Source: a virus
Direction: 5' to 3' (one strand)
DNA length: 39,518 nt
Virus record (IMG/VR): IMGVR_UViG_3300023184_000268
Coordinates: 1 to 39,518 of that record
A model generated the notes under the pieces. That model had not been told where the DNA came from. It searched no databases and saw only the letters and a program-made list of their open reading frames with translations. Made by a program: the position numbers and the translations under genes. Positions 15,351 through 17,815 of the stretch are shown here, piece after piece (position 1 is the stretch's first letter; each line of letters begins with the position of its first letter).

Positions 15351-15377
15351 TTGGACTGTCCTTTAGTTGATTGGGAC

Positions 15378-15408
15378 TTGACTATAGCACAACTTTTTGT
15401 GCTAAACT
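15378..15408. promoter_or_regulatory. Divergent promoters with palindromic operator
   Basis: The 18-base site AGCACAACTTTTTGTGCT (15386-15403) is a perfect 7-bp inverted repeat around four bases. Rightwards, TTGACT (15378-15383) and TAAACT (15403-15408) flank it as -35 and -10 with a 19-bp spacer. Leftwards, TATAGT (15386-15381) is a good -10 box for the replication operon, with no clear -35. A dimeric regulator bound here would block both directions. The only nearby HTH candidate of its own is the protein at 19367. Confidence 0.6.
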
Positions 15409-15415
15409 TCTTGAC

Positions 15416-15688
15416 ATGAAAGAAAAAGATGTAGAAAATCATTTTGTCTGGGCGGTGGAGCGGCTTGGTGGTAAGACCTACAAGTTCACCTCACCAGGGC
15501 GCAAGGGCGTAGCGGACAGGATAGCTTGCCTGCCTGACGGCAGCACTTGGTTTGTGGAACTCAAGACCAAGGGCGGTAGGTTATCAGAATTGCAAAAGCT
15601 GTTTGCCGCAGACATGGCGCGGCTCAATCAAAGGTATGTATGTCTATGGACAAAGGAACAAGTCGATGAACTATTACAACGAAATTGA
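15416..15688 (+). CDS. VRR-NUC domain nuclease
   Basis: The ATG at 15416 gives 90 residues, about the size of a stand-alone VRR-NUC domain. It shows the family pattern: Glu near the start (EKDVENHFVWAVERLGG), KFTSPGRKGVADRIACLP with the catalytic Asp in VADR, and WFVELKTKGGRLSELQ with the ExK motif. VRR-NUC proteins are PD-(D/E)XK enzymes that cut branched DNA, and phages carry them next to SNF2 helicases, as here. There is no Shine-Dalgarno sequence, and the predicted transcription start is within a few bases of the ATG, so the message may be leaderless. Confidence 0.92.
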   Translation: MKEKDVENHFVWAVERLGGKTYKFTSPGRKGVADRIACLPDGSTWFVELKTKGGRLSELQKLFAADMARLNQRYVCLWTKEQVDELLQRN

Positions 15689-16518
15689 CCCGTACGCCGC
15701 GCAGTGGCTACGCAACCTGATAGACGCAGGGCATATCGCCCACGGTATTGTTGACGAACGGAGTATCACAGATGTTAAGCCCTTTGATCTTGCAGGCTAC
15801 ACCCAATGCCATTTCTTTGCTGGTATCGGAGTCTGGAGCCATGCGCTACGTCAATCAGGATGGCCTGACAGTAGACCTGTTTGGACGGGTAGTTGCCCAT
15901 GCCAACCGTTTAGCGCCGCAGGCAACCAAAAAGGCACCACCGACGATCGCCATCTCTGGCCCGTCTGGTTCAATCTCATCCGCGAGTGCCGCCCTCCAGT
16001 TATCTTTGGTGAGCAAGTTGAAGCAGCGATTAGACACGGCTGGCTCGACCTTGTTCAAACTGACTTGGAAGGAGAAGATTACGCCTGCGGGGCGGTCGGT
16101 ATCCCTGCTGCGGGCGTCGGCGCTCCGCACATCCGGCAGCGACTCTGGTTTATGGCCGACGACACTCGCGTCGGACAGTCGGGGGTCAGCGGGCGTTGGC
16201 AAACGCGAGTTACCGAATGCGGTGAAGTGGATAGGCTGGCCGACGACATCGACGCGGGATCACAAGGGCGGCTACCGGGGGGGGGCGTATGAGAGACGGC
16301 AAGATCAGCACGGACACGTTGGATGTAGCAGCGCAACTGGCTTTTGGGCGAACTGTGATTGGCTCTCCTGCCGAGACGGAAAATACCGGCCAGTTGAATC
16401 CGGCACATTCCCGTTGGCTCATGGGTCTACCGCCAGAGTGGGACGCCTGCGCGCCTACGGCAACGCCATTGTCCCGCAAGCCGCGCAAGCGCTCATAGAG
16501 GCTTATCTTGAAACTTAG
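15666..16518 (+). pseudogene. DNA C5-cytosine methyltransferase, frameshifted at G9
   Basis: The gene starts at ATG with AAGGA upstream, overlapping the nuclease by 23 bases. Residues 1-206 carry motif I CHFFAGIGVWSHAL (48-61), motif IV GSCPCQPFS with catalytic Cys79, a GEQV variant of motif VI (115-118) and motif VIII APHIRQRLWFMA (153-164). The frame then hits TGA at 16290. The missing C terminus (DWLSCRDGKYRPVESGTFP, then motif X RLRAYGNAIVPQAA) follows in the next frame up to 16518. Deleting one G from the nine-G run at 16277-16285 joins both parts into a normal 283-residue enzyme. It is either a sequencing/assembly indel or a slippage off-state. It would protect phage DNA or mark it. Confidence 0.85.
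15772..16498 (+). CDS. Nested alternate-frame ORF inside the methyltransferase
   Basis: In the +1 frame relative to the methyltransferase a long open frame runs through VDLFGRVVAHANRL, GPSGSISSASAALQ, GSTLFKLTWKEKITPAGRS, LLRASALRTSGSDSG and WPTTSTRDHKGGYRGG. After the G9 run it resumes, one frame over, as RMRDGKISTDTLDVAAQL and ends LNPAHSRWLMGLPPEWD plus a basic tail. One G fewer gives a continuous 241-residue protein. I recall proteins with these same motifs annotated separately in many phages. They may be a real overprinted gene or a recurrent mis-annotation of the methyltransferase's shadow frame. No strong ribosome-binding site precedes the ATG. Confidence 0.4.
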
Positions 16519-17815
16519 ACCCTATCAAGATGAGGCGGCTGACTTCCTGTACGAGCGCGACAGGGCGATGATCCTCGCCCCTGTGGGTGCTGGCAAGACA
16601 GCCATCACGCTGACTGCCATGCAGGCCATGCTCAAGGACGGGCACGCCAAGCGCTTCCTCGTGCTGGCCCCCAAGCGGGTCGCCACCAGCGTCTGGCCGG
16701 TCGAGCAGCCTAAGTGGGCACCTGATGTGACGCTGGCCGTCGCTGTGGGTTCTGCCAAGCAGCGGGCCGCTGCGCTGGCGTCTAACGCCCAGGTGGTGGT
16801 GACCAACTACGAGAATCTGCCCACGGGCAAGTTTGATGCGGTGGTGTTTGACGAACTGACGCGGCTCAAGAATCCCAGCGGCAAGCGCTTTAAAGACTTG
16901 CTGAAATTCCTTGCGGCCATCGAGATTCGTTGGGGGCTGACCGGCTCGTTCACCAGCAACGGCTTGGAGGACGTGTTCGGCCAATGCAAGATTGTTGACC
17001 AGAGCCTGTTGGGCCGCAGCAAGGGTGCTTTTCAGCAGCAGTATTTCGTGCTAATCAACCCCGACTTTGGCGAGTGGGCACCGCGCAAGGGCAGTTTAGA
17101 GAAAGTGATGGCCGTGATAAAGCCTGCCACTTTTGTGCTGGACGCGGGTGAGTATAGCGACAAGCTGCCGCCGCTTCACACGGTAGAAATGCGCTGCGAT
17201 CTGTACGACCGCAAGCCTTACGACACCATGAAAAAGGACTTCAAGCTGCAAGACATTACGGCCATCAACGCGGCTGTGGTGACCGGCAAGTTGCAGCAGC
17301 TTGCCAGCGGGTTTGTGTACAACACGGTGCAGAGCCCATCGGAGATACCTGGCAAGTGGGTGACGGTGCAGACGCCAGTGTGGTTTGACACGGCTAAGTT
17401 TGACCGGCTGCATGAGTTACTGGAGGAGAACCAACGTGCTAACACGCTTATTGTTTACAACTATCAAGAAGAACTGGCCGAACTCAAGCGGCGTTACCCC
17501 CATGCTCAAACACTTGACGACGACCGGGCAATTGAACGGTGGAACGCGGGCACCATTGAGTTACTGCTTGTCCACCCCAAGTCAGCAGGCCACGGGCTCA
17601 ACCTCCAGTACGGCGGGTGCCGGATCGTGTTTTTGTCCCTGCCCTGGTCGCTTGAGTTGTATGAACAGACCATCGGGCGTTTGCATCGTAGCGGCCAGCG
17701 GCATGACGTGTGGTGCTACGTGATGCTTACCAACAAGACGGTGGACGAACGCATCTGGGCCGCGCTGCACGACAAGCGCGCTATTTCTGATATTGCTATG
17801 GAAGAACTATGTTAA
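16508..17815 (+). CDS. SNF2-family DNA helicase
   Basis: The 435-residue superfamily 2 helicase starts at TTG (AGAGG seven bases upstream). A start at the first internal Met would remove the Q-motif-like LRPYQDEA, so TTG is preferred. Motifs in order: I APVGAGKT (24-31), Ia VLAPKRV, II FDELTRLK (114-121), III GLTGSF (143-148), V AGHGLNLQYGG (360-370) and VI QTIGRLHRSGQ (387-397). SNF2-type phage helicases usually travel with VRR-NUC nucleases and act in recombination or replication restart. It overlaps the methyltransferase end by 11 bases, and its stop overlaps the next small gene. Confidence 0.94.
   Translation: MKLRPYQDEAADFLYERDRAMILAPVGAGKTAITLTAMQAMLKDGHAKRFLVLAPKRVATSVWPVEQPKWAPDVTLAVAVGSAKQRAAALASNAQVVVTNYENLPTGKFDAVVFDELTRLKNPSGKRFKDLLKFLAAIEIRWGLTGSFTSNGLEDVFGQCKIVDQSLLGRSKGAFQQQYFVLINPDFGEWAPRKGSLEKVMAVIKPATFVLDAGEYSDKLPPLHTVEMRCDLYDRKPYDTMKKDFKLQDITAINAAVVTGKLQQLASGFVYNTVQSPSEIPGKWVTVQTPVWFDTAKFDRLHELLEENQRANTLIVYNYQEELAELKRRYPHAQTLDDDRAIERWNAGTIELLLVHPKSAGHGLNLQYGGCRIVFLSLPWSLELYEQTIGRLHRSGQRHDVWCYVMLTNKTVDERIWAALHDKRAISDIAMEELC

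Follow-up and report, generated by a model that had tools for sequence, protein, structure and literature searches.

Long genes nested within another gene on the same strand are considered rare in prokaryotes. In M.EcoHK31I (YGGCCR), the gene for the small chain lies inside the gene for the large chain and is read in another frame. The label "Mte8-like" used in K1 phages presumably denotes this same enzyme. M.EcoHK31I is a two-polypeptide C5 methyltransferase whose large chain carries motifs I-VIII and X and whose small chain carries motif IX, and its predicted recognition region has been assigned to the large chain (PMC3404938). M.AquI has its catalytic motifs on one chain and a smaller subunit with a distal variable region and motifs IX-X (PMC3404938). 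A different kind of overlap has been described for ShiLan, where an insertion in a phage methylase hides an HNH endonuclease in another frame (PMC11855218).

The locus examined here lies in a viral stretch of 39,518 nucleotides (IMG/VR record IMGVR_UViG_3300023184_000268, hereafter the window). A small-chain gene nested in a large one is found both at this locus and in its relatives. We call the outer frame alpha and the nested +1 frame beta, and we consider it probable (roughly 80%) that this single DNA segment, through its two frames, encodes both chains of one C5-cytosine DNA methyltransferase. Like the large chain of M.EcoHK31I, alpha has motifs I-VIII and X (X weak, II-III apparently permuted) and lacks IX. 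However, the predicted recognition region of M.EcoHK31I is placed in its large chain, whereas the conserved variable part is here in beta; the likeness is drawn from the published description. The locus would resemble M.AquI (CYCGRG), with the catalytic motifs on one chain and a putative motif IX accompanying some of the variable region on its partner. It differs in that motif X of M.AquI is on the small chain, as in the mycobacteriophage Peaches, whereas here alpha carries X and beta is the nested chain. Like ShiLan, it has a second protein in another frame within a phage methylase gene, but the ShiLan HNH endonuclease is a mobile homing insertion, whereas every full-length relative sampled has beta as a conserved element of the locus. 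We found no account of the nested arrangement across phages in the open-access papers searched, and its breadth in phages provisionally appears to be unreported.

Layout of the locus and the interrupted frames

Alpha begins at an ATG at 15666 and beta at an ATG at 15772, about 106 bases inside alpha (Table 1). In the window, a run of nine G shifts alpha out of frame, so that it meets a stop at 16290, and the same run moves the C-terminal motif of beta into the third frame. L006 and L007, the nearest relatives (96% and 98% identity across the locus), have eight G, and when the window is read with eight G, alpha (283 aa) and beta (241 aa) are both fully open. A first-pass annotation of the window had proposed a 241-codon frame over 15772-16498. 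A +1 frame inside the methyltransferase does exist there, but that interval, at 727 bases, cannot be divided into whole codons, because the G run shifts the frame; the unbroken frame is found in the relatives with eight G. The motifs quoted in that annotation are likewise all present, although GSTLFKLTWK..TPAGR and LRASALRTS are in the frame spanning 15748-16518 and PAHSRWLMGLPPEWD is in another (16289-16498).

Table 1. Positions of the alpha and beta features in the window
Feature	Position	Strand	Basis or remark
Alpha, part 5' of the G run (catalytic C5 methyltransferase chain), with premature stop at 16290-16292	15666..16292	+	
Putative Shine-Dalgarno GGAG of beta, within alpha Arg-Ser codons	15760..15763	+	Covariation with start position
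Beta (nested +1 frame), up to and including the G run	15772..16285	+	
Alpha motif IV, PCQPFS (catalytic Cys)	15897..15914	+	M.HhaI alignment for the relative L006
Beta STLFKLTWKEKITPAGRS	about 16045-16098	+	
Nine-G run breaking the alpha and beta frames	16277..16285	+	Eight G in L006 and L007
Alpha, C-terminal part 3' of the G run, in another frame here; stop at 16516-16518	16286..16518	+	
Beta, C-terminal part 3' of the G run, in the third frame here; final stop at 16498	16286..16498	+	
Beta LNPAHSRWLMGLPPEWD, motif-IX-like, overlapping alpha motif X	16394..16444	+	Canonical LSPREAARLMGLPDDY; bridge through Peaches
Alpha motif X, RVGRLRAYGNAI	16435-16470	+	Motif X alignment weak (E = 0.054)

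We take the extra G, which truncates both chains here, to be either an indel error from sequencing or assembly or a mutation that arose recently. Perhaps the run instead works by phase variation, switching both chains on and off, given that it is the longest G run of the window, that a single base alters both frames, and that close relatives differ in having nine or eight G. This seems quite improbable, however, since a long G run was seen only in the window record and its two closest relatives and was absent from the next three loci inspected, and the nine-G state rests on a single unverified assembly. For our early database searches, the window proteins were translated as if the run had eight G; all other family comparisons used unmodified relatives.

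Read in this way, alpha matches phrog_363 (E = 4e-83) and scores 49 bits against PF00145 (curated cut-off 22), which identifies it as a C5-cytosine DNA methyltransferase. Beta matches phrog_1008 (E = 1e-27), and its C-terminal part matches phrog_31772 (E = 2e-26). Both chains of the locus are matched by PHROGs, where the three families are entered separately, each named DNA methyltransferase, in a listing that is silent on nesting. The upstream neighbor (window 15371-15688) is a VRR-NUC-like nuclease (weak Pfam match; phrog_93 endonuclease). The downstream neighbor (16508-17815) is a SNF2-type helicase whose listed open reading frame starts within the end of alpha.

Conservation of the nested frame

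The first-pass annotation left two outcomes in play: a nested gene conserved beyond what the methyltransferase frame forces, or an annotation artefact being propagated. On the artefact explanation, the +1 frame would be open solely through composition and methyltransferase-frame constraint. Relatives were gathered by alignment of alpha only. In all 80 viral loci selected in this manner, the longest +1 frame spans 63-98% of alpha, and the +2 frame of the same loci typically covers about a tenth. Synonymous-codon shuffling within alpha predicts 4.1 stops per locus in the extent of beta, rising to 5.5 with the codon usage of a neighboring gene, and yet this extent is open in 82/82 loci. At a few loci, openness in this test could be due to chance, with P reaching 0.31 at one of them. 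Because the extent in that test was taken from the open frame itself, it was repeated with an extent fixed beforehand on 54 cluster representatives below 65% identity. The fixed extent is open in 53 of these, for a joint log10 P of about -109 as a product of probabilities. In 24 C5 methyltransferases that Pfam picked out of the same bacterial genomes, which served as a negative control, the longest +1 frame covers a median 0.23 of the gene. Among these canonical enzymes the nested frame is absent except at one partial locus (L274, 232 aa, partial PF00145 match), which was flagged with a nested WLMG frame.

Synonymous-site variation, the check proposed in the first-pass annotation, was compared across 26 disjoint pairs of 70-98.5% identity, with neighboring genes taken from 13 pairs. 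Ahead of the overlap, the proportion of differing alpha 4-fold sites is 0.387 (CI 0.28-0.50). Within it the value is 0.184 for the catalytic part, 0.062 for the middle region and 0.116 towards the C-terminus, against 0.277 in neighboring genes. Methyltransferase-synonymous change is thus down 2-6 fold inside the overlap. The first-pass annotation had named the lack of such a reduction as part of what would refute a nested gene, and this check went in favor of the gene. The pos3/pos1 ratio for alpha is 4.0 before the overlap and then 2.15, 0.64 and 1.24 inside it, compared with 2.6 for the neighbors. Because the wobble positions of beta coincide with first codon positions in alpha, a ratio below 1 in the middle region indicates that beta is the constrained frame there. 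Similarity among representatives in this region agrees, with median Z values of 7.9 for beta, 1.8 for alpha and 1.2 for the third frame. The closest pairs, which are non-independent, give dNN/dNS values of 0.28-0.38 inside the overlap. These substitution patterns show beta to be under purifying selection.

Judged from sequence conservation, then, the nested +1 frame is a real, conserved protein-coding gene. The openness across representatives, the greater conservation of beta than alpha in the middle region, the reduced alpha-synonymous change with pos3/pos1 falling below 1, and the lack of the frame in canonical enzymes leave the artefact explanation with almost no credibility.

The placement of the start codon adds to this picture. 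Across loci, the ATG of beta is found at a few preferred places. Among loci with the ATG 19 bases beyond the DERSI anchor, 50/67 have GGAG in the Arg-Ser codons of alpha, compared with 0/26 loci where the ATG is elsewhere (Fisher P = 5e-12, relatedness uncorrected); for representatives only, the counts are 22/29 and 0/12 (P = 6e-6). In the window, GGAG is located eight bases ahead of the ATG. This covariation between Shine-Dalgarno and start position supports a predicted translation start of beta's own.

Relation of the two chains to C5 methyltransferases

The alignment of alpha to canonical C5 enzymes covers motif I, motifs IV-VIII and, weakly, motif X (E = 0.054), and the alpha of the relative L006 aligns with M.HhaI residues 74-170. 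Comparison of alpha with canonical C5 profiles gave nothing for the target-recognition region or motif IX, and where a one-chain enzyme has its target-recognition region, alpha has a fast-evolving linker. The N-terminal YYNEIDPYA...DERSITDV of alpha matches the motif II-III part of a second, distantly related methyltransferase family described below (E = 9e-4). This suggests a permuted order in window 15666-15830, in which putative motifs II-III (YYNEIDPYA, DERSITDV) precede motif I (FAGIG).

The end of beta, LNPAHSRWLMGLPPEW, resembles the canonical LSPREAARLMGLPDDY by eye. Direct profile comparison with canonical enzymes gives a weak match at motif IX for the beta of the second family (E = 0.04) and nothing at motif IX for that of the first family. 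A link between beta and the canonical enzymes is provided by Peaches (L285:1113-2208), which has a split, mostly non-nested version in which the catalytic chain ends after motif VIII. Its +1 frame carries in one chain the same TP-repeat region, a WMMG motif and then GNGVVVQQ (motifs IX and X). It has matches to canonical motifs IX-X (E = 1e-4) and, more strongly, to the beta of the second family (E = 1e-21). Because this homologous frame has IX and X in one chain, beta would be the C-terminal half of a split enzyme. The structural searches were less informative. PDB sequence searches with beta profiles returned nothing credible, and AlphaFold2 models of beta alone, made with 53 and 127 aligned sequences, have low confidence overall, the confident parts being one helix, one hairpin and short C-terminal helices.

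Given these resemblances, we propose that alpha would supply the catalytic chain, with motifs I-VIII and motif X. Beta would be translated from its own ATG, following a Shine-Dalgarno sequence set in the Arg-Ser codons of alpha, and would contribute the variable, presumably DNA-recognizing part and motif IX, which is what alpha lacks. The two would then assemble into one active enzyme, as in M.EcoHK31I. We infer that beta is produced, associates with alpha and determines specificity; the enzyme would presumably be an orphan phage methyltransferase protecting or marking phage DNA.

Perhaps beta is instead a real gene with a separate product outside the methyltransferase, for example a regulatory or anti-restriction factor. 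First-family beta shows no significant direct similarity to C5 enzymes, and some loci with a damaged alpha retain an open beta. The latter observation counts against the two-chain proposal, which in its strict form does not predict it, and decay of the locus is a simple reading. A separate protein nevertheless seems unlikely because alpha lacks exactly what beta resembles, the Peaches homologue joins motifs IX and X in one chain, and alpha and beta strictly co-occur in all loci sampled. The first-pass description of an overprinted gene also needs revision: because the nested protein resembles a displaced recognition region with motif IX, de novo overprinting is probably wrong, and beta looks more like a displaced C-terminal half.

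Distribution, annotation and significance

Searches by tblastn with beta matched 226 phage records, 98 of them with at least 80% cover. The best 80 beta matches in bacterial genomes are all nested in the +1 frame of alpha, and there is no free-standing copy among these 80. All 127 aligned beta proteins match phrog_1008.

A Pseudodesulfovibrio MAG contig (L128:3862-5766) carries two different nested alpha/beta pairs in tandem, one per family, and the second C5-methyltransferase family was first met as this tandem neighbor. Searched separately, this distant family has a long +1 frame in 80/80 loci and the WLMG motif in 73/80. The nested-protein profiles of the two families align at E = 1e-24 over 203 columns, which marks the two nested proteins as homologous, and the arrangement is therefore common to both. 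The rarity envisaged for a large overlapping gene does not hold in this setting, since the same arrangement covers two distantly related phage families.

Several individual loci differ in form. A Pseudochrobactrum plasmid carries a compact pair (L166:2847-3629) with an alpha open frame of 261 aa and a beta of 207 aa, and the PLSDB gene table lists no gene there. At L005:1464-2294, L122:3832-4860 and L167:2913-3900, alpha is damaged or lacks its N-terminus, and beta, or much of it, is still open.

Annotation of the two frames is uneven. Both are annotated in K1ind2 and Paenibacillus phage Bloom, only beta in PMG1, and only alpha in N15 and in four E. coli prophages (in RefSeq for the prophages). 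No beta family was found in Pfam or NCBIfam. The four E. coli prophage relatives were opened and no restriction enzyme was found beside them; these loci are prophage orphans. Because RefSeq holds only the outer frame in these prophages and one phage record holds only the nested frame, the databases contain half-enzymes. Should beta be the recognition half, methyltransferases cloned or classified from alpha alone would turn out inactive or misassigned.

The nested gene recurs in nearly every sampled member of two phage enzyme families, and its selection signature is strong enough for methods of overlap detection to be benchmarked on it. With some reservation, we favor the view that large groups of phage C5 methyltransferases are usually encoded with beta nested in alpha, an architecture that predates the split of at least two distant families. 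If this is true, annotation would have overlooked many recognition subunits, and specificity would evolve through the nested frame, with the outer frame preserving catalysis.
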